DNA of 64,000 nt from Siphonobacter aquaeclarae (GTDB taxonomy: Bacteria > Bacteroidota > Bacteroidia > Cytophagales > Spirosomataceae): NCBI RefSeq assembly GCF_900103285.1, contig NZ_FNGS01000005.1, forward strand, positions 554,579 to 618,578. Reading direction: 5' to 3'. The notes below the pieces were generated by a model that ran no database searches, was not told where the DNA came from, and saw nothing but the letters and a program-made list of their open reading frames with translations. How positions within the stretch are numbered: the stretch's first letter is position 1; the number at the start of each line of letters is the position of its first letter. This document shows positions 17,819 to 60,314 of this stretch, piece by piece. A program made the translations under genes and the position numbers.

Positions 17819-17996
17819 TAGGCTGTAAGCTTTAAGCTTTAAGCTATAGGCGGGTGGCAAGTCTCCACGAATATCTCCAGAGATTTCGAATCCAGGCAAT
17901 GCACAAAGAGGCACGCTCTGAATGGAGCGTGCCTCTTTGTGTTTACTCGCTGATGCAGCGTACCGTCTATAGCTTAAAGCATACAGCCTATAGCCC
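17819..17996. repeat. GCTGTAAGC/GCTTTAAGC word-repeat inverted repeat around a terminator
   Basis: The left arm (17819-17851) reads TAGGCTGTAAGC followed by TTTAAGC words. The right arm (17967-17995) is its complement with changes; the innermost 12 bases (17838-17849 with 17967-17978) pair perfectly. It spans the gap between two convergent genes and encloses the terminator stem at 17903-17940. The same words occur at 27476-27595, 57210-57330 and 62915-63128. Confidence 0.85.
17903..17940. terminator. bidirectional terminator between convergent genes
   Basis: Perfect 16-bp stem ACAAAGAGGCACGCTC / GAGCGTGCCTCTTTGT with a 6-nt loop. It separates the crystallin gene (plus) from the MBOAT operon (minus) and lies inside the larger word-repeat hairpin. 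Confidence 0.8.
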
Positions 17997-25920: not shown

Positions 25921-27475
25921 CCCCCTCCTTGTATTCGCCCTCGCCTGGGGCCTTACTTTATCCGTCGCCGCGCAGCAACGGCGGCTGGAAATTCCCATTC
26001 CGTCAACTTCCGCCAGTATTTTCACCATTCCTGTCGGAAAGGAAGGCGTTATGCTGCTGACCCAGACGGGCAAAAACTCCTACCATGTCGACCGGTTCGA
26101 CACCAACATGGACCGCAGCTGGTCGGTAGACGGTACGATTACCGAAGGCCTCGAATACGTCACGTACTCGTACGATGGCCGGAATGTCTATCTCCTCTTC
26201 AGTCGCTCGAAAAGCAATGTATACGAAGTTATCAAAGTCTACGTAGGACCCGGTTTTACGGAGAAATTTGAGATTCATTCGGTCGACAAAATGGAGATCT
26301 CCCAGTTCAAAGCCTTCAATGACGGCATTTACATCGCCGGTATTGTGCGGGAGCAGCCGATTTTGTCGTATACCAACCTGCAGACGCGACAGAACCGCCT
26401 GCTGAACGCCACGTTCAAAGGCCAGGCCGAAGTGCAGGCGATTGACGTGGATTCGGTGACCAACCGCGTCAACGTAACCTACTGCGTCCGGAAAAGCCGG
26501 GATTACTCCATCGTCGTCAAGTCCTTCGACGACGTGGGCAAGCAGCTTTCTGAGATCGTCGTCACGCCGGACGAGGACTATGCGCTGCTCGACGGACGCC
26601 TCAGCGTCCTCCCGGATGGTACCCAGCTGATGGTTGGCACCTATGGTTTCCGCAACATGCAATCGCCGACGAAAGGACGTATCGTACAAGGGTTGTATAT
26701 CTGCAAAGTAACTGAAAATGAAGTACTTCCACTGAAGTACTATAGCTTCACGGACTTCAAGAACTTCTATTCCTACCTGAGCCCGCGCGACCTGGAGCGC
26801 CGCGAACGTCAGATCGCCCGCAAGAAGGAAAAAGGCAGTGACTACAAAGTCAATACGCAACTACTGCTCCATGATGTCATTCAGAAAGACGGGCAGCTGA
26901 TCATCGTCGCCGAAGCCTTCCAGGCTACGTTCCGGAACCAGAGCAATCCGTGGGGATATGGCGGCGGTCCGTGGGGTTACGGTCCCGGTGGCGGCGGCTT
27001 CTATCCCGGCTGGGGCTGGGGTATGTACAGCCTGAACCCCTGGTACTTCGGAAACCGGGGTCTGTACAACAACGGCTCGCAGATATTCGACGGCTGGCAG
27101 TATACCCACGCCATAGTCGCAGGTATCAACCAGCAGGGTGCTATCGTCTGGGATAACAGTTTTGAAATTGACCAGACGAAGTCCATGACTTTGAAAGAAA
27201 AGGTCAAGGTAAATCTGCAGAACGACCAGCTGACGATGGTATACAGTGACCGGGGACGGCTCCTGTCCAAATCCATCAAAGGCGATATGGTCCTTGAAAA
27301 CGGTACTGCGCAGGCCATTGCGACCGGCAGCGCGGGCGACAAAATCCGCCGCCAGGGTACCGACAACCTGGACTACTGGTATGATAACTACTTCCTCGCC
27401 TGGGGCTTCCAGCGCATCACAAACGATGCAGACGGGAGGAGAACGGTGTTTTATCTGAATAAAGTAGCGTATTAA
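25907..27475 (+). CDS. secreted hypothetical protein with a Gly/Tyr/Trp-rich insertion
   Basis: 522 residues with a signal peptide (LLVFALAWGLTLSVAAQ). Most of the protein looks like a beta-propeller or beta-solenoid without catalytic signature. Around residues 348-390 is an unusual low-complexity stretch of Trp, Gly, Tyr and Pro (for example GYGPGGGGFYPGWGWGMY), framed by ordinary sequence. Only 14 bases overlap the EVE gene upstream; an ATG at 25913 is an alternative start. It is followed by a word-repeat hairpin with an internal terminator. Function unknown. Confidence 0.75.
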   Translation: MNMRNPLLVFALAWGLTLSVAAQQRRLEIPIPSTSASIFTIPVGKEGVMLLTQTGKNSYHVDRFDTNMDRSWSVDGTITEGLEYVTYSYDGRNVYLLFSRSKSNVYEVIKVYVGPGFTEKFEIHSVDKMEISQFKAFNDGIYIAGIVREQPILSYTNLQTRQNRLLNATFKGQAEVQAIDVDSVTNRVNVTYCVRKSRDYSIVVKSFDDVGKQLSEIVVTPDEDYALLDGRLSVLPDGTQLMVGTYGFRNMQSPTKGRIVQGLYICKVTENEVLPLKYYSFTDFKNFYSYLSPRDLERRERQIARKKEKGSDYKVNTQLLLHDVIQKDGQLIIVAEAFQATFRNQSNPWGYGGGPWGYGPGGGGFYPGWGWGMYSLNPWYFGNRGLYNNGSQIFDGWQYTHAIVAGINQQGAIVWDNSFEIDQTKSMTLKEKVKVNLQNDQLTMVYSDRGRLLSKSIKGDMVLENGTAQAIATGSAGDKIRRQGTDNLDYWYDNYFLAWGFQRITNDADGRRTVFYLNKVAY

Positions 27476-27595
27476 GGCTGTAAGCGATAGGCTTTAAGCT
27501 TTAAGCAGGCGGCGGTGGGTCGGAAGGCTTGCCGCCTTTTGCTTTTATATAGCAGAGCCATCGCAGCTTGCTGCTTAAAGCTTACAGCCTAAAGC
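27476..27595. repeat. GCTGTAAGC/GCTTTAAGC word-repeat inverted repeat with internal terminator
   Basis: Begins immediately after the stop codon at 27475. Arm 27488-27508 (TAGGCTTTAAGC and following) pairs with 27571-27591 over 21 bases with one mismatch. Inside is a smaller stem AGGCGGC (27507-27513) / GCCGCCT (27531-27537) followed by TTTTGCTTTT, a likely intrinsic terminator. Same family as 17819-17996, 57210-57330 and 62915-63128. Confidence 0.85.
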
Positions 27596-53193: not shown

Positions 53194-53232
53194 CATTAAC
53201 CTTGTTTAACCTTAAAGCAAGGTTCGTTAACC
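53194..53232 (+). promoter_or_regulatory. 39-bp shared operator, copy at the receptor gene
   Basis: Begins CATTAACCTTGTTTAACC and ends GCAAGGTTCGTTAACC. It contains two direct TTAACCTT repeats 10 bases apart, an inverted AAGGTT and a closing GTTAACC. It is 37/39 identical to the complement of 58161-58199. The 10-base repeat spacing fits an OmpR/PhoB-type regulator. It ends 58 bases before the receptor ATG. Confidence 0.82.
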
Positions 53233-53290
53233 GCCTTTGGAAGAGGAAAGGAATAGTTTCGGCCCAGATCTCCGACAACATATTTCTTCC

Positions 53291-56116
53291 ATGAAAAAAC
53301 AATACCTTCTTCCGGTATTCTTCCTGCTGCTCAGTCTGGCCGCCACCGCACAGACAGGCCGGTGGACCCTCAAAGGTACCCTGGCCGATTCCACCGGCGG
53401 TATCCTTCAGAGCGCGTCTGTCACATTACTTGATACCAAAGACTCTACATTGCTTGATTTTCAGCTATCTGACAGCAAGGGCGCATTTGCCTTTCCGAAC
53501 CTCGCTCAGCGAAACTACCTGCTGCGCATCACGCATGTCGGATACCGCGACTGGTTTGAAAAAGTCGGAAGCGATGTCCCCGATCTCGGTAAAATTACCC
53601 TGACACCTCGTGGCAAAAACCTGAATGAAGTAGTCGTCAAAGGTGAAAGAGCGCCGGTCACGATGCGGCACGATACAGTCGAATTCAATGCCGACGCCTT
53701 CAAAACCCGGCCGAATGCCACCGTTGAAGACCTCCTCAAACGCCTGCCCGGCGTGGAAGTGGAAAGCGACGGTACCGTCAAAGCACACGGCAAAAGCGTG
53801 CAGCGGGTACTGGTAGATGGCAAGGAGTTTTTCGGCACCGACCCGAAAATGGCGACCCGGAACCTGGCGGCGGAGGCCGTCAAGGCGGTTCAGGTATTCG
53901 ACCGGAAATCGGAGCAGTCGCGCTTTTCGGGAGTAGACGACGGTACCCGGGAAAAGACCATCAACCTCGAACTGAAGGAAGACTTCAAGAAAGGCATTTT
54001 CGGGACGGCTGTCGCCGGCGCAGGAGATCAGGGCCGCTATACCGGACGTCTGAACCTCAACCGCTTCGCAAAAAACGAGCAGTATTCCCTCATCGGCACG
54101 CTGAATAACATCAACCAGCAGGGTTTTACGCTCAACGATTACTTTAACTTTTCGTCGGTGGGAAGCGGCAGTTCCGGCGGGGGCGGCCCGACGATGGTCA
54201 ACGTCACCCGTGGCAGCAGCGGAGGCGGCGCGACGGTCAACGGCGTGGCGGTGAATATTCCCGGCCAGACGTCCTCCGGATTTGTCAATTCCGGTTCCGG
54301 AGGCCTTAATTTCTTCAACCAGATTAACAAAAAGACGAAAATCGACGGTAACTATCTCCTCAATTCTGTCAAAAGCACGATTGACCGGACCGTTGACAAA
54401 GAGAATTTTCTCGAAAACGGCAGTTACAAAAGCAAACAGAGCGGCAATACCGTCAGCCGGACGACCAACCACCGCCTCAACCTGAACCTCGAAACCCAGC
54501 TGGACTCGCTCAGTACCCTGCGGTGGACGAATACCGGCTCCATCACCGGGAGCGACTACCGGACCTCCACCCTCACCCAGACCTATGGAACAGACGGGGC
54601 ACTTCAGAACGACGGAACACGCGCCAACTACTATGAAGGCACAGCCTACTCGCTGAATTCCAACCTCGCCTACCGCCGCCGGTTCAGCAAAAAGGGTCGT
54701 TCGCTGACAGCGAACCTGGTTTTCGGGCTTAACAACGACAAAAAGACCGGGAACATCAACGCAGTCAACAACTACTTCGGCACGAATGCGTCGTCGGATA
54801 CCACGCGGCAGGACGACCGCCAGAAAAACGGACGGCTCAACTACGGCATCACGGCTTTTTACATCGAACCGCTCAGCAAGCGTACTTTCCTGGAATTCAA
54901 CTATACCTACCAGCGGAATCTCAACGATTCGCGGAGAGACGTCGACGATATCAAGGGCGAAACCCGCACGCCGAATACCCAGCTCACCAACCGGTATGAC
55001 AACCAGTACAACTACCACCGCGGCGGTCTGAGCTACCGGTACGCCGGGCGGGCGCTCAACCTGTCGACGGGTCTGAATATCCAGCAGGCAAGCCTGATCG
55101 GGGAGTTTCCGCTGAAGGATATGAGCATCACGCGGCACTATACCAACCTGCTGCCTAACCTGCGGATGATGTACAACCTGGCTTCGAGCAAAAACCTGAA
55201 TTTCACCTATGAAACCAGCGTGCAGCAGCCCAGCCTGACGCAGCTTCAGCCGATCGTCGACAATACCGATCCTCTTAACATCAGTACCGGTAATCCGGAC
55301 CTGAAGCCGGAGTACAACCATCAGTTTTCGCTCAACTACTTCTCGTTTAACCCATCCCGGTTCCGGAATTTCTTCGGAAACGCGTTTCTGACCTATACCA
55401 CGAATAAAATAGCCAACTCCCAAACCGTAAGTGATCAATTGGTTACAACGACGAAGCCGGTCAACGTACCGGATAATCTCCAGGGGAACGGATTTGTTGG
55501 CTTTGGCCTGCCTATTCAGAAGGTAAAGGGCCTGCGGGTCAATGCGAACGTCGGCGTGACCTATGCCCGCAGCCAGAGTATCATCAACGCCGGGAACAAC
55601 GTCACCAAAACGCTGGGAACAAACCTGGGAACGCGGATCGACTACCGTCCGGGCGATGTATTTGACATTAACCTGGCAGCGAATCTATCGCTCAACAACG
55701 CCACCTACTCCCTTCAGGCAGCGCAGAATCAGCAGTACTCCACCCAGCGCTATACTGTCGACGCCAACTGGAATATCACGCCGAAATGGGCCATTTCCAG
55801 TTCGATGAATTATCAGGTACTCGCCGGGAAAGGCTACAACCAGGAAATTCCGATCTGGAATGCTTCATTGACGCGGTATATTTTGAAGAACAACGCCGGA
55901 GAGATCAAGTTTATCGCGACGGATATGCTCAACCGGAACGTGGTTATCAACCGGTCGGTCGATGTGAACTATTTCCAGGAAGAGCGGGTGCGGTCGCTGG
56001 CGCGGTACTTCCTGGTCACCTTCACATACACGCTCCGGAACAAGGCAGGCGCAGGCGGGCGGGGACCGGTGCGGGGCGGACCGGGAGGGCGGCCGCCGAT
56101 TATGATCGGGGGATAA
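53291..56116 (+). CDS. outer membrane beta-barrel (TonB-dependent receptor-like) protein
   Basis: 941 residues. Signal peptide (MKKQYLLPVFFLLLSLAATAQ), a carboxypeptidase-regulatory-like domain (about residues 24-105), a plug domain (TVEDLLKRLPGVEVESDGTV ... VLVDGKEFFGTDP) and a large barrel of the OMP_b-brl_3 type. Gly/Ser-rich stretches lie near residues 295-345 and the C-terminus is Gly/Arg/Pro-rich (GGRGPVRGGPGGRPP). It is probably an importer or surface receptor of unknown ligand. The shared 39-bp element upstream links it to the GLPGLI gene and the second two-component system. Confidence 0.9.
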   Translation: MKKQYLLPVFFLLLSLAATAQTGRWTLKGTLADSTGGILQSASVTLLDTKDSTLLDFQLSDSKGAFAFPNLAQRNYLLRITHVGYRDWFEKVGSDVPDLGKITLTPRGKNLNEVVVKGERAPVTMRHDTVEFNADAFKTRPNATVEDLLKRLPGVEVESDGTVKAHGKSVQRVLVDGKEFFGTDPKMATRNLAAEAVKAVQVFDRKSEQSRFSGVDDGTREKTINLELKEDFKKGIFGTAVAGAGDQGRYTGRLNLNRFAKNEQYSLIGTLNNINQQGFTLNDYFNFSSVGSGSSGGGGPTMVNVTRGSSGGGATVNGVAVNIPGQTSSGFVNSGSGGLNFFNQINKKTKIDGNYLLNSVKSTIDRTVDKENFLENGSYKSKQSGNTVSRTTNHRLNLNLETQLDSLSTLRWTNTGSITGSDYRTSTLTQTYGTDGALQNDGTRANYYEGTAYSLNSNLAYRRRFSKKGRSLTANLVFGLNNDKKTGNINAVNNYFGTNASSDTTRQDDRQKNGRLNYGITAFYIEPLSKRTFLEFNYTYQRNLNDSRRDVDDIKGETRTPNTQLTNRYDNQYNYHRGGLSYRYAGRALNLSTGLNIQQASLIGEFPLKDMSITRHYTNLLPNLRMMYNLASSKNLNFTYETSVQQPSLTQLQPIVDNTDPLNISTGNPDLKPEYNHQFSLNYFSFNPSRFRNFFGNAFLTYTTNKIANSQTVSDQLVTTTKPVNVPDNLQGNGFVGFGLPIQKVKGLRVNANVGVTYARSQSIINAGNNVTKTLGTNLGTRIDYRPGDVFDINLAANLSLNNATYSLQAAQNQQYSTQRYTVDANWNITPKWAISSSMNYQVLAGKGYNQEIPIWNASLTRYILKNNAGEIKFIATDMLNRNVVINRSVDVNYFQEERVRSLARYFLVTFTYTLRNKAGAGGRGPVRGGPGGRPPIMIGG

Positions 56117-56120
56117 ATGC

Positions 56121-56154
56121 GAAAAGCGGCTGCAAGGACAGCCGCTTTTCTTTT
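56121..56154 (+). terminator. intrinsic terminator after the receptor gene
   Basis: Perfect 12-bp stem GAAAAGCGGCTG (56121-56132) / CAGCCGCTTTTC (56139-56150) with a 6-nt loop, then TTTTATC. Confidence 0.88.
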
Positions 56155-56165
56155 ATCAGGATCTT

Positions 56166-56236
56166 GTCTGTGTATTCTGTGAAGTCTGTGAGAAAAAAGA
56201 AATAGATGTTCTCACAGACTTCACAGCATACACATA
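56166..56236. repeat. CTGTGAAGTCTGTGAG inverted repeat, copy 2
   Basis: 56170-56194 pairs with 56209-56233 over 25 bases with one mismatch. The left arm is identical base for base to 39952-39976, about 16 kb away; the loops differ (AAAAGAAATAGATG here). It lies between the receptor terminator and the convergent permease stop codon. Confidence 0.92.
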
Positions 56237-56241
56237 CATTT

Positions 56242-57120
56242 TTAGAGTATCAGGTTGCGCAGGCTGAGGCCGATGATCACCAGTCCAACCACGATCATCA
56301 ATGCCTTCGGGTTAATCTTCCCGCAGATAAAGGCCGCAAATGGAGAGGCAAGTACGCCGCCCAGCAGCAAACCGGCCGTGATGCTCCAATGCTGAACACC
56401 AATCATCAGAATAAACGTCAGCGATCCTGCGGCCGCGATGAAAAACTCGGCCAGGTTAACCGATCCGATGGTATAACGCGGCGAGCGGCCCTGTCCGAGA
56501 AGAGACGTCGTAACAACCGGCCCCCATCCGCCCCCGCCGACGGCATCGATGAAACCACCCAGCAATGCCAGCGCTCCTACGTAGCGGGTCTTTTTCTTGG
56601 TTTTTCGTCCGATGATCGCCTTGCGGATAATCACACCGCCCATACAAAGCAGGTAAACAGAGATATAGGGCTTCAGGAAGCTACCGTCGAACGAGCTGAG
56701 CAGGTACGCGCCGGTCACCGCGCCGATGACGCCGGGAATGATCAGTACCTTGAGCAGTTTCTTGTTGACATTCCCGAATTTCCAGTGTGAAAGACCGGAA
56801 GCGCCGGTGGTGAATACTTCGGCAATGTGTACGCTGCCGCTCGCTGCCGCCGGACTAACGCCCAGGCTGAGCAAAAGCGATGTAGAGCTGATGCCATAGG
56901 CCATTCCCAGCGCGCCGTCTATCGTCTGCGCAAGGAAACCGGCTCCGACAAACAGCCAGAACTCCCCTTTCGTGAGTTCAGATACGACCACCGTAACGGC
57001 CGGTCCGGCGAAAGCGAGTGCTGCCGCCAATCCTCCCGCCAACAAAACGCTGACAGCTAAAATAAGCCAGAATGTATTGGGCGCCGGCAATGCCCGGGCA
57101 GTAGTTGTCGTAGTAGCCAT
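56242..57120 (-). CDS. TSUP family (TauE/SafE-like) permease
   Basis: 292 residues with about eight hydrophobic segments. Family features: FLAQTIDGALGMAYGISSTSLLLSLGVSPAAASGSVHIAE is compressed into the first repeat (quoted in parts: GALGMAYGISST, LGVSPAAASGSVH) and the second repeat has GFIDAVGGGGWGPVVTTSL. TSUP proteins export or import sulfur-containing organic anions such as sulfite or sulfoacetate; the substrate here is unknown. It stands between the receptor and the GLPGLI gene on the minus strand, separated from the latter by a word-repeat hairpin. Confidence 0.88.
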   Translation of the reverse strand: MATTTTTARALPAPNTFWLILAVSVLLAGGLAAALAFAGPAVTVVVSELTKGEFWLFVGAGFLAQTIDGALGMAYGISSTSLLLSLGVSPAAASGSVHIAEVFTTGASGLSHWKFGNVNKKLLKVLIIPGVIGAVTGAYLLSSFDGSFLKPYISVYLLCMGGVIIRKAIIGRKTKKKTRYVGALALLGGFIDAVGGGGWGPVVTTSLLGQGRSPRYTIGSVNLAEFFIAAAGSLTFILMIGVQHWSITAGLLLGGVLASPFAAFICGKINPKALMIVVGLVIIGLSLRNLIL

Positions 57121-57209
57121 ACACAAAAGAAAAAGCCGGACCCTCGCCGGCTGGACAAAGAAACGTACTTTTTATATAAACTCTATATGTTTAATAGATT
57201 TTTAAGGAA

Positions 57210-57330
57210 GCAATAAGCCGTAGGCTGTAAGCAATAGGCTGTAAGCTATAGGCTGCCGGCAAACTACCCCGGCGCGGCCTATAGCTTACAGCCTACAGCT
57301 TATTGCTTACAGCTCAAAAACCTATTGCCT
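57210..57330. repeat. GCTGTAAGC word-repeat inverted repeat
   Basis: A perfect 19-bp stem, 57235-57253 with 57277-57295 (TAGGCTGTAAGCTATAGGC and complement), surrounded by more TAGGCTGTAAGCAA and TTGCTTACAGC words. The 23-nt loop holds a small GCCGG/CCGGC stem. It lies between the GLPGLI stop codon and the permease ATG. Confidence 0.88.
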
Positions 57331-57332
57331 AA

Positions 57333-58115
57333 TTACCCCCCGATCCGCACCCGGCGTTCGCCGTTCATCTGCTGCATTTTCTGGCGCATGATGTCCTGGA
57401 ATTCGGTTTGGGTGACGGCCTTGCCGCCTTTCGGTTGTTTGAGTTCGGAAGACTTCGGCTTCTTCCAGTCAATTTCCGTGACCGTTGTAACCATTTCCCC
57501 TTCGTTCACGTCTACTTCCAGAATCAGGCCGGGAAGGCCTGCGTAGCGATCCGGACCGATGGACACGGGGATTTCCGGGGCATACCAGGCCACCACCGTA
57601 CGCGATCGTTTCGCCTGGGCCGGTTGCTGCCCCTGAGGGGCTGGCATCGGTCCGCCGAACGTCAGCATCTGGGCTGAAGAGGAGTCGCTGAAAGTCGCCT
57701 TCCGGCATTCGATCCCCTTGATGGTTTTGGTTTCCGAGCCGATCTTCCAGCGCTGGCTGCGCAGGGTATCTTCGATCCGGTAGAGGTCGCCGAATACGTC
57801 GCGGAGTTCCACCCGTTTCCGTTCCCGGATTTTCGAGTAGATCTCGGTACGCGGACGGTTGAAGCGGAACGCCGGACCGCCGCCGGGGCCTGCCGGCTCG
57901 TCGTCAACAGTCGGTTCATACAGCGCTTCGTCCGCTGTAAACATCAGCTGATACCCCGTCGTAACGGACTCGGGCATACGGGCCTGCATGGCGGGGTCGG
58001 CGATCTGAACCCGGCCGCGCATCGCTGTTTTCTGACTATAGGTAATGGTCCCTTCGGTATGCTGGGCGATGGCCGCAGAACCGGTGAAGCAGAGGAGTAA
58101 CAGGGCTTTTTTCAT
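57333..58115 (-). CDS. GLPGLI family protein
   Basis: 260 residues. Signal peptide (MKKALLLLCFTGSAAIAQ), beta-rich body and the family-naming motif in PDRYAGLPGLILEV near residue 180. GLPGLI proteins are exported Bacteroidota proteins of unknown function, often encoded near outer-membrane beta-barrel receptors. A -7 box TAGCTTTG (58149-58142) and the 39-bp shared operator lie upstream. The divergent histidine kinase gene begins 123 bases away. Confidence 0.9.
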   Translation of the reverse strand: MKKALLLLCFTGSAAIAQHTEGTITYSQKTAMRGRVQIADPAMQARMPESVTTGYQLMFTADEALYEPTVDDEPAGPGGGPAFRFNRPRTEIYSKIRERKRVELRDVFGDLYRIEDTLRSQRWKIGSETKTIKGIECRKATFSDSSSAQMLTFGGPMPAPQGQQPAQAKRSRTVVAWYAPEIPVSIGPDRYAGLPGLILEVDVNEGEMVTTVTEIDWKKPKSSELKQPKGGKAVTQTEFQDIMRQKMQQMNGERRVRIGG

Positions 58116-58141
58116 GAAATTGGAAGGAAAATACGGATAGA

Positions 58142-58149
58142 CAAAGCTA
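58142..58149 (-). promoter_or_regulatory. candidate -7 box of the GLPGLI gene
   Basis: TAGCTTTG on the minus strand matches TAnnTTTG. A TTTG inside the operator (58170-58167) lies 17 bases upstream, slightly closer than the usual 19-21. Confidence 0.5.
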
Positions 58150-58160
58150 CCTTCCGCCGA

Positions 58161-58199
58161 GGTTAACAAACCTTGCTATAAGGTTAAACAAGGTTAATG
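58161..58199 (-). promoter_or_regulatory. 39-bp shared operator, copy in the GLPGLI/kinase divergent region
   Basis: Read on the minus strand it begins CATTAACCTTGTTTAACC and ends GCAAGGTTTGTTAACC, differing from 53194-53232 at two positions only. It lies 45 bases before the GLPGLI ATG in the same orientation as at the receptor gene, and directly upstream of the kinase promoter on the other strand. Confidence 0.82.
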
Positions 58200-58202
58200 C
58201 CG

Positions 58203-58233
58203 TTTCGGCCGTGACTTCCTGCCGTTATCTTTG
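58203..58233 (+). promoter_or_regulatory. Bacteroidota-type promoter of the histidine kinase gene
   Basis: TTTC (58203-58206, consensus TTTG), a 19-base spacer and TATCTTTG (58226-58233, exact TAnnTTTG). The -7 box ends four bases before the ATG at 58238, so transcription would start at or next to the start codon, giving a leaderless or nearly leaderless mRNA. The shared operator ends three bases upstream of the -33 box. Confidence 0.65.
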
Positions 58234-58237
58234 AATC

Positions 58238-59647
58238 ATGTGGTATCCGAAGCCTTTTTCCCGCAACCAGCTGCTGATTGCTCTCATGGTGAGCAGTCTG
58301 CTGCTGCTGAGCGGATTTATGGCGTGGTGGCTGCGGCGGAGCTTCCGCGAGCAGAAGCAATTGCTCGTTGCCGAGGCCAGTCAGCCCTTTTTCCGGTCGG
58401 TTATGGGTTTGCAGGATTCCCTGATTACGCAAAAAGTACTTCGGCCCATGCAGGCAAAAGGCCTGGGCGGCAGTATCCGTATCATGACCATGCAGCCGCG
58501 CCGGGACAGCCTGTTTCATCCGCCTCAGCAAGCGTTTTTCCGTCACATAGAGCGGCGAACGGGAACGCCGCCTCCGGTGGGTCGCCGGCCCGTGTTTTTT
58601 GGCCGGGGTATTCCGGCTTCACTGGCCAGAATCGGACCGGATTCCCTGCGCGATTCCCTCAAAATCAAAGAATTATCAATTCGGTATCAACTGGAGCTGG
58701 ATACGTCGGCGCTACGCATCCGCTATTCCGTCTTCCGGATGACGGCGCCTCCTCCGCGGCACTCCGACACGCTGTTTACCAACGCCTTTCAGGCCGGTCT
58801 GCCGCCCGACCATTTTTATGTCGCGCGGATCGAAGACTATGTACCGCTCGTCCTGAAACGGATGGTGCCGCAGATCCTGTTTTCCGTTTTTTTACTTGGA
58901 TTGACAACGGTAGCCTTCGTGCTGGTATTCAGAAGTCTGCGGGCACAGCAAAAGCTCACGGCGATGAAAAACGATTTCATCAGTAACATCACGCATGAGC
59001 TGAAAACGCCGATTTCGACCGTCAGCGTAGCGATCGAGGCCCTCAGTCATTTTGACGCCCTGAAAGATCCGGAACGTACGCGGGAGTACCTCGCGATTTC
59101 GAAAACAGAGCTCAACCGGTTGAACCTGCTGGTGGATAAAGTCCTGAAAACGGCGCTGTTCGACCAGCAGCGGATCGCCTATCATTTCGAGACGCTCCCG
59201 CTTGTACCCCTTATTCAGGAAGTACTGGACTCGCTGCGGGTTCAGTTTGAGAAGACCGAGGCAGATGTCCGGTTTCAACACGGCACCGGAGCATTTTCTG
59301 TGTCGGGAGACCGGGTTCACCTGATGAACGTCCTCTACAACCTCCTCGATAATGCTTTGAAATACAGCCGTAGCAGGCCCAACATCTGCCTTTCGCTGAC
59401 CGATATGCCCCACGGGATACGCCTGCAGGTACAGGATCAGGGAATTGGTATTGAGCCGGAGTATCAGCTGCAGGTTTTTGAGAAATTTTTCCGTGTGCCT
59501 ACCGGCGACGTCCACAATGTCAAAGGGTATGGCCTCGGCCTGAGCTATGTCCATCAGATTATCACCGGCCACGGCGGTACCATACGCCTGGACAGCGAAC
59601 CCGGCCGAGGCAGTACCTTTGAAATTACCTTTCCGTATCATGGCTAA
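58238..59647 (+). CDS. sensor histidine kinase
   Basis: 469 residues. Transmembrane segments at about 12-32 and 212-233 frame a periplasmic sensor of about 180 residues, rich in Arg and Pro, with no known domain recognised. There is no clear HAMP domain. HisKA has phosphoacceptor His253 (NITHELKTPIST); the ATPase domain shows NLLDNALKYS and GYGLGLSYVHQII. It pairs with the response regulator that overlaps its last 8 bases. The shared 39-bp element upstream suggests the pair controls itself, the GLPGLI gene and the receptor. Confidence 0.95.
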   Translation: MWYPKPFSRNQLLIALMVSSLLLLSGFMAWWLRRSFREQKQLLVAEASQPFFRSVMGLQDSLITQKVLRPMQAKGLGGSIRIMTMQPRRDSLFHPPQQAFFRHIERRTGTPPPVGRRPVFFGRGIPASLARIGPDSLRDSLKIKELSIRYQLELDTSALRIRYSVFRMTAPPPRHSDTLFTNAFQAGLPPDHFYVARIEDYVPLVLKRMVPQILFSVFLLGLTTVAFVLVFRSLRAQQKLTAMKNDFISNITHELKTPISTVSVAIEALSHFDALKDPERTREYLAISKTELNRLNLLVDKVLKTALFDQQRIAYHFETLPLVPLIQEVLDSLRVQFEKTEADVRFQHGTGAFSVSGDRVHLMNVLYNLLDNALKYSRSRPNICLSLTDMPHGIRLQVQDQGIGIEPEYQLQVFEKFFRVPTGDVHNVKGYGLGLSYVHQIITGHGGTIRLDSEPGRGSTFEITFPYHG

Positions 59648-60314
59648 ACTACTGTATGTCGAAGACGAACCCTTTCTGGGGCGTATTGTGAAAGAAAGCC
59701 TCGAGAGCCGGCAGTACGAGGTGGTAATGGTCGCGGATGGCGACGAAGTATCCGGCACGCTCGAAGCGGCCAACCCGGACTTATGCCTGCTGGATGTCAT
59801 GCTGCCCAACCGGGACGGTTTCTCCCTCGCCCGCGAGATCCGGGCCCGCTACCCCGACCTGCCGATTCTGTTTCTGACGGCCAAAACCCAGGTAGAAGAC
59901 GTGATAACTGGCTTTGAATCAGGCGGTAACGACTACCTCCGCAAGCCTTTCAGCCTGGAGGAGCTCATCGTCCGGATCGAAAACCTGCTTCGGCTATCCG
60001 TCCGGCCGGCGCAGAAAGCGGCGCTGTCGGTCGGGAGCTACGATTTCCTTCCTCAGAAATTTGAACTCCGGAAAGGAGAGCGTATACGCAAGCTTTCGCA
60101 CCGGGAAAATGAACTGCTGCGGATTTTCGCTGAAAACCAGAATCAGACCGTCGCCCGCAAGGACATATTGATGAAGGTTTGGGGCGACGACTCCTTCTTC
60201 AACTCCCGGAACCTGGACGTATACATCACCCGGTTAAGGGAATATCTCCGGGAAGACGAAAAGCTTCAGATCGTTACGATCAAGGGCGTCGGGTACCATT
60301 TCATCACCGGATAG
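59640..60314 (+). CDS. OmpR/PhoB family response regulator
   Basis: 224 residues. Receiver domain with acidic pair (YVEDEP), phosphoacceptor Asp52 (LLDVMLPNRDG), FLTAKTQ and NDYLRKPFSLEE; C-terminal winged helix with LSHRENELLRIFAENQ and SRNLDVYITRLREYL. ATG 59640 overlaps the kinase gene by 8 bases. As an OmpR-type protein it should bind tandem direct repeats with 10-11 base spacing, which is the layout of the shared 39-bp element nearby. Confidence 0.95.
   Translation: MAKLLYVEDEPFLGRIVKESLESRQYEVVMVADGDEVSGTLEAANPDLCLLDVMLPNRDGFSLAREIRARYPDLPILFLTAKTQVEDVITGFESGGNDYLRKPFSLEELIVRIENLLRLSVRPAQKAALSVGSYDFLPQKFELRKGERIRKLSHRENELLRIFAENQNQTVARKDILMKVWGDDSFFNSRNLDVYITRLREYLREDEKLQIVTIKGVGYHFITG

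Follow-up and report, generated by a model that had tools for sequence, protein, structure and literature searches.

In Escherichia coli, PhoB binds head-to-tail to the direct-repeat half-sites of the pho box, which holds a fixed place upstream and replaces the upstream promoter element; the repeats are spaced 11 bp apart and the promoters are of the sigma-70 type. A related arrangement is described here for Siphonobacter aquaeclarae, in a window of 64,000 nucleotides (contig NZ_FNGS01000005.1, positions 554,579 to 618,578; coordinates below are those of the window), where a 39-bp element stands before the gene of a receptor-like outer-membrane protein (OMR; 53291..56116, + strand) and before a GLPGLI family gene (57333..58115, - strand), the second copy lying next to a histidine kinase gene (58238..59647, + strand) followed by that of an OmpR/PhoB-type response regulator (59640..60314, + strand). 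The array differs from the E. coli pho box in its 10-bp spacing within pairs and in the TANNTTTG-type -7 boxes that accompany it. Judged from comparative sequence evidence, the element is very probably the operator of the 59640 regulator, and the receptor, the GLPGLI gene and the kinase-regulator pair would form a small regulon.

Two described Bacteroidota systems resemble this locus. In Riemerella anatipestifer, the two-component regulator of PhoPR has a TTTAACA-containing motif and counts GLPGLI proteins, an outer-membrane beta-barrel protein and its own operon among its targets (PMC9603813). PhoPR is global, with 583 peaks in DNA affinity purification sequencing (DAP-seq) and 764 genes (PMC9603813), whereas here there are one or two four-unit operators per genome, tied to neighbouring or cognate genes. 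In Porphyromonas gingivalis, HaeSR (PG0719-0720) binds at its own promoter and also in front of transport genes, TonB-dependent receptors among them (PMC3764172), and two GLPGLI genes are included in the table for PG0720 (PMC8757827). HaeSR differs in having 57 genes with sites in front and in its role in hemin acquisition, and no TTAAC array was seen in the available parts of the two papers (PMC3764172, PMC8757827). The literature searched, which excludes preprints and most subscription papers, held no description of this receptor-GLPGLI-kinase regulon, and the passages found gave no role for GLPGLI proteins and nothing related on TTAACCTT in combination with Bacteroidetes.

The array and its putative regulator

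Direct comparison of 53194-53232 (+ strand) with the complement of 58161-58199 gave differences at 2 of 39 positions, as claimed in an earlier note made from the letters of the window, and the distances given there, 58 nt from copy 1 to the receptor ATG (53291) and 45 nt from copy 2 to the GLPGLI ATG (complement of 58115), are exact. Copy 2 was also rightly placed directly upstream of the kinase promoter, with a predicted kinase -7 box, TATCTTTG, at 58226..58233 (+ strand), 28 nt from the outer array edge. With as many as 3 mismatches allowed, a 37-bp core (copy 1, 53196..53232, + strand; copy 2, 58161..58197, - strand, in the interval from which the GLPGLI and kinase promoters diverge) has two matches in the window, against an expectation of 0 from 100 shuffles, and, in a scan for scattered copies, just two in the whole assembly (6,189,941 bases in 19 contigs), with none in the backwards control. 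Genome-wide, TTAACCTTN2TTAACCTT without mismatch occurs solely at the two 39-bp copies, and further weak copies are not indicated, with 18 genome matches at up to 3 mismatches versus 54 in the backwards control.

The half-sites follow a direct-repeat pattern, seen in copy 1 as TTAAC units at 0, 10, a degenerate unit at about 21, and 31, and kept in relatives. Of 80 unique target-linked sites, 76 have TTAAC without mismatch at 0, 10 and 31, and in 54 the letters at positions 21-25 match TTAAC in at least three of five, where about 12 would be expected from the shuffled interval. The earlier note had read the array as direct repeats 10 bases apart plus an inverted AAGGTT; the direct repeats stand, while AAGGTT, present in both window copies, is weakly kept among relatives (exact in 9/80 sites, with at most one mismatch in 27/80) and the inverted-repeat reading was dropped. 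Because of these frequencies, a degenerate third direct TTAAC unit appears to be the better reading of the array family. Direct half-site repeats about one helical turn apart, the form of an OmpR/PhoB-type operator, are thus present, and array identity is 75% among 12 chosen representatives versus 28% for the spacer and upstream flank. At 25 bits, the real matrix had 84 matches in 1.98 Mb, whereas its reversed form and ten column-permuted versions had none, the best score among the permuted ones being 21.8.

The candidate binder of both copies carries a receiver domain (PF00072, 96.6 bits) and a Trans_reg_C winged helix (PF00486, 69.4 bits), as expected of an OmpR/PhoB-type regulator. Its closest NCBIfam model is RprY (215.8 bits, below the equivalog cut-off of 370), and its match to PhoB of Bacteroidota (NF053854) is likewise below cut-off (153.3 bits; cut-off 270). 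Among 18 aligned regulators from array-bearing loci the DNA-binding domain has NSRNLDVYITRLR or close variants, and in four sister regulators from loci that lack the array it has NGRSLDVFITRLR or close variants. The kinase comprises HisKA and HATPase_c domains. The OMR combines CarboxypepD_reg with OMP_b-brl_3 (PF14905, 152.9 bits, above the threshold of 27), with no plug model matched at 0.001, and the GLPGLI protein (TIGR01200 / Porph_ging), with a signal peptide judged by eye, scores 140.2 bits against TIGR01200 (cut-off 50).

Distribution among related genomes

Kinase relatives were sought in 59 genomes, including that of S. aquaeclarae, and 25 regions were retrieved, among which the array was found again before OMR and/or GLPGLI genes; it also recurs before such genes in further families, both within the order and in the wider class. 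A profile (R1) was built from 21 sites, one of the initial 22 (L083, weak with 3 mismatches) being left out. Across 150 family genomes it found 47 places of at least 22 bits in 37 genomes (next score, 18.8), and with all 47 regions retrieved, 46 precede an OMR or GLPGLI gene; at the exception (G158) a four-unit array with a 10-bp period adjoins another kinase-regulator pair. Such placement is what the earlier note had proposed to look for in related genomes, and with at most two target-linked sites per genome in the family, order and class scans, its candidate regulon of receptor, GLPGLI protein and kinase/regulator gains comparative support.

The array also tends to accompany the kinase. In each of the 31 genomes whose kinase match reaches 252 bits or more the array is present, and it was found in 6 of the remaining 119 (Fisher p ~2e-26, a value that ignores relatedness and uses a cut-off set afterwards); kinase and array samples both comprise 150 family genomes, with the same handles where listed and the unlisted ones presumed identical. 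Among the six, the array adjoins a weaker kinase-regulator pair in three (G024, G122, G130) and a kinase interrupted by a contig end in a fourth (G166), stands in front of GLPGLI and OMR where the contig ends in a fifth (G160), and lies elsewhere in G158. Most kinases with scores of 213-251 bits are read as probable sister kinases. Seven sister kinase loci (L084-L086, L088-L091) have no comparable array, L088 having one half-array with 3 mismatches. In the genus (six genomes), four have the kinase and the array together with close orthologues of OMR and GLPGLI, and two (G001, G004) lack all of these.

Gene order varies across the 36 target-bearing family genomes. In ten of them OMR and GLPGLI are separate units with two arrays (G029 being judged from two contigs), and in 26 there is one array, with OMR and GLPGLI as same-strand neighbours in 25; the last (G156) has no detectable GLPGLI gene, and its OMR match (L125) spans residues 24-414 only. 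The array lies about 610 nt before the OMR in G132 (L141). Three genomes of one genus in family f4 (G063, G082, G097) have an OMR that is 151 kb from the kinase or on another contig, with an array in front and the -7 box 21 nt from it. The profile was built without these three unlinked OMR sites, though with the GLPGLI sites of G063 and G082. In all three the array precedes the receptor gene at the customary spacing, which is the strongest sign of control in trans. Where kinase and regulator lie downstream of OMR and GLPGLI in the same direction, co-transcription would yield autoregulation likewise. TauE and M14 peptidase genes were considered as regulon members and rejected, as they adjoin array loci in part of the lineages only.

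Beyond the family, the profile gave 29 further places in an order scan (291 genomes, E <=0.001; lowest score, 19.9 bits), 25 of them before OMR or GLPGLI, and 10 in a class scan (395 genomes, E <=0.0005; lowest score, 22.7 bits), 6 of them so placed. Pooled over the three scans, 77 of 86 distinct matches precede an OMR or GLPGLI gene. In scans of more than 40 genomes stricter filters lose weak matches, and absence there is not proof. The off-target matches are, for the order scan, G222:C1:309978, G251:C86 (beside a kinase), G063:C5 and G216 and, for the class scan, G585 and G678 (both beside a kinase), G684 and G497. At G585 (L283 1669-2124) the array beside a kinase precedes a small open reading frame (ORF), DoxX-like by eye, in the place of GLPGLI, and at G678 the array adjoins a kinase and an ORF that looks OMR-like by eye. 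Of the named loci L200-L249, nine have a site of at least 25 position weight matrix (PWM) bits (L200-L203, L206-L209, L218), three (L204, L210, L214) have one site each of 20-23 PWM bits and the other 38 have none of at least 17. Kinase and array occur together, among the matches listed, in Chryseolinea serpens (L208) and in metagenome genomes of Saprospiraceae, Chitinophagaceae and Bacteroidales. A loose pattern, TTAACCTTN2TTAACCTTN6AAGGTT with 3 mismatches, was unspecific: it matched 17 places in 99 genomes, 8 of them belonging to the present loci, and had about as many matches in the backwards control; separation came with the profile only. There were also TTAAC arrays with a 10-bp period, perfect or longer, at L148 9883-9922, L150 9834-9873 and L288 near 1498, adjoining other genes or other kinase-regulator pairs, and the same TTAAC half-site seems to be used by related regulators.

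Promoter spacing and predicted mode of control

The -7 element of Flavobacterium johnsoniae is TANNTTTG at -12 to -5, with probable promoters starting 4-5 nt later (PMC6847099), and the same -7 box is reported for F. psychrophilum (PMC9723704). In the window, one such box is predicted for the receptor promoter at 53254..53261 (+ strand; TAGTTTCG, one mismatch), 21 nt past the array, and another for the GLPGLI promoter at 58142..58149 (- strand; TAGCTTTG), 11 nt past it. Spacing was compared over 127 regional loci (L068-L092, L123-L150, L176-L249) selected by kinase or array, in which 82 of 84 sites have an OMR or GLPGLI gene within 1200 nt downstream, a figure biased by the choice of loci; the profile scans give the location-free one. 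Among 83 unique sites, a -7 box with at most one mismatch follows the array by 21 nt in 69, by 11 nt in 8, by 22 nt in 2 and by 10 nt in 2, with none in the last 2. Offset 21 was favoured when several fitted, and L081, L082 and L194, which have boxes at both 11 nt (one mismatch) and 22 nt (perfect), were counted as 11. Among the first 22 sites, 15 had offset 21, while any one offset reached at most 4 in 2000 shuffles.

On the opposite side of the array, at 40 divergent loci, the kinase-side box lies at 28 or 29 nt (32 perfect, 8 with one mismatch), compared with a mean of 0.054 and a maximum of 2 perfect boxes in shuffles. At GLPGLI promoters of the own genus and of distant loci (L092 12739-12778, L068, L070, L071, L188, L203, L209), box and array are separated by 10 or 11 nt, a distance shorter than usual by one helical turn. 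In genus g31 (L075, L125-L127, L129, L131-L133, L140-L143), a perfect opposite-strand TATCTTTG was seen 11-13 nt beyond the outer side of the array that precedes the receptor operon. The TPR gene divergent from the receptor was rejected as a target, the nearest perfect -7-like box having no fixed place (61 to 93 nt in four genus genomes). Because the kinase box ends 4 nt before the ATG (window 58226-58240), so that the predicted transcription start coincides with that ATG, the kinase mRNA is predicted to be leaderless. An ATG follows the kinase box by 4-5 nt at 17 of the 40 divergent loci (in any frame, with its role as start unchecked per locus), and leaderless mRNAs make up 5.5% in F. psychrophilum (PMC9723704).

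Together these features suggest a mechanism in which the 59640 regulator, as partner of the 58238 kinase, would bind both copies, the four TTAAC-type half-sites (about 0, 10, 21 and 31, the third degenerate) seating two head-to-tail regulator dimers. Copy 1 would drive the receptor, and copy 2, between divergent promoters, would serve both GLPGLI and, in the other direction, the kinase-regulator genes, making the circuit self-controlling. The array edge is predicted to lie at about -34 or, nearer by one turn, at -24, and on the kinase side at about -41/-42. Because the phase from array to box is fixed on both sides, activation is the probable mode if the element is an operator, and the array is likely to control the kinase as well, which would be autoregulation. 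The kinase may sense an envelope or receptor-linked signal.

Between TauE and GLPGLI (57209-57330) there is a palindromic cluster of 7-bp-periodic repeats of the GCCTATAGCTTACAGCCTA type, with other window copies near 17819-17851 and 27474-27591. A 19-mer of this repeat with up to 3 mismatches has 359 genome matches versus 2 in the backwards control, and many places, among the matches listed, look by eye like opposed pairs. By eye, it resembles a dispersed hairpin-forming element similar to repetitive extragenic palindromes.

Competing explanations and implications

If the element is an operator of the 59640 regulator, it could instead be a repressor site, covering the -33 region and keeping the promoters off until the signal arrives. 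An array edge at about -34 at most receptor and GLPGLI sites, and at about -24 at the own-genus GLPGLI promoter, would allow a bound protein to block polymerase; however, the 21-nt spacing in 69 of 83 sites, with most of the remaining sites displaced by roughly one full turn, fits contact with polymerase better than blocking, and the second fixed spacing, 28/29 nt to the divergent promoter, points the same way, leaving repression the rather unlikely mode. Less probable again, and quite unlikely, is that another regulator of the same family, such as an RprY-like global one, reads the operator and has the adjacent pair merely as a further target. RprY is the nearest NCBIfam model of the adjacent regulator, though below cut-off, and the targets of Riemerella PhoP, which recognises a TTTAACA-containing motif, include GLPGLI and beta-barrel genes (PMC9603813). 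Against such a global reader stand at most two target sites per genome versus the 583 Riemerella peaks and the near-confinement of the array to genomes with the kinase (31 of 31 at 252 bits or more, 6 of 119 others). A global regulon of hundreds of sites, as for Riemerella PhoP, was not found in the S. aquaeclarae genome, where the scan, to which other site forms are invisible, detected two array sites. The near identity of the two window copies could also reflect a dispersed repeat or a recent duplication by gene conversion, devoid of regulatory role, but the genome scans rule against the former with two copies in total, the array is kept between families amid unrelated flanks, and copies diverge more within other genomes (e.g., L070), so that this explanation is exceedingly improbable.

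Several results weigh against control of the array by the 59640 regulator as set out above. The 252-bit kinase cut-off was picked after the lists were seen, the genome next below it (G141, 250.8 bits) is without the array, and of 29 genomes whose best kinase match is 213-251 bits, G158 and G166 alone have it. Common descent links the sites, and some genomes nearly duplicate one another, so that the counts do not represent independent events. The unlinked-receptor arrays of G063, G082 and G097 score just 21.8, 21.8 and 22.2 bits, and nine of the 86 pooled matches are off-target (three adjoining a kinase gene, one a different kinase-regulator pair and five near neither). Cnuella takakiae (L205) has kinase, regulator, GLPGLI and receptor genes with no array recognised (none of at least 17 PWM bits), which counts against universality of the array. 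The own-genus GLPGLI array is one turn closer to its box and could have a different output there, and other regulators of the 59640 family may bind TTAAC-type repeats.

Set against these points, a regulon that is conserved and dedicated, and whose kind is known, is well supported by the comparisons, with the 59640 regulator as its probable reader. It would tie one GLPGLI lineage, through a conserved operator, to one receptor and one two-component system, a concrete and testable context. The pair of defined promoter boxes offers, through reporter fusions, a route to finding the signal, and one array at fixed spacing from two divergent TANNTTTG-type promoters may serve as a comparative model for regulators working with an unusual sigma factor. 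A tentative and rather unlikely extension is that receptor, GLPGLI protein and kinase-regulator pair form an ancient Bacteroidota envelope-sensing module, in which the receptor would sense or take up a ligand, the secreted GLPGLI protein would inform the kinase, in the periplasm, of how the outer membrane or ligand stands, and the regulator would reinforce all of them via the shared four-unit operator; if so, the GLPGLI family would be a signalling partner.

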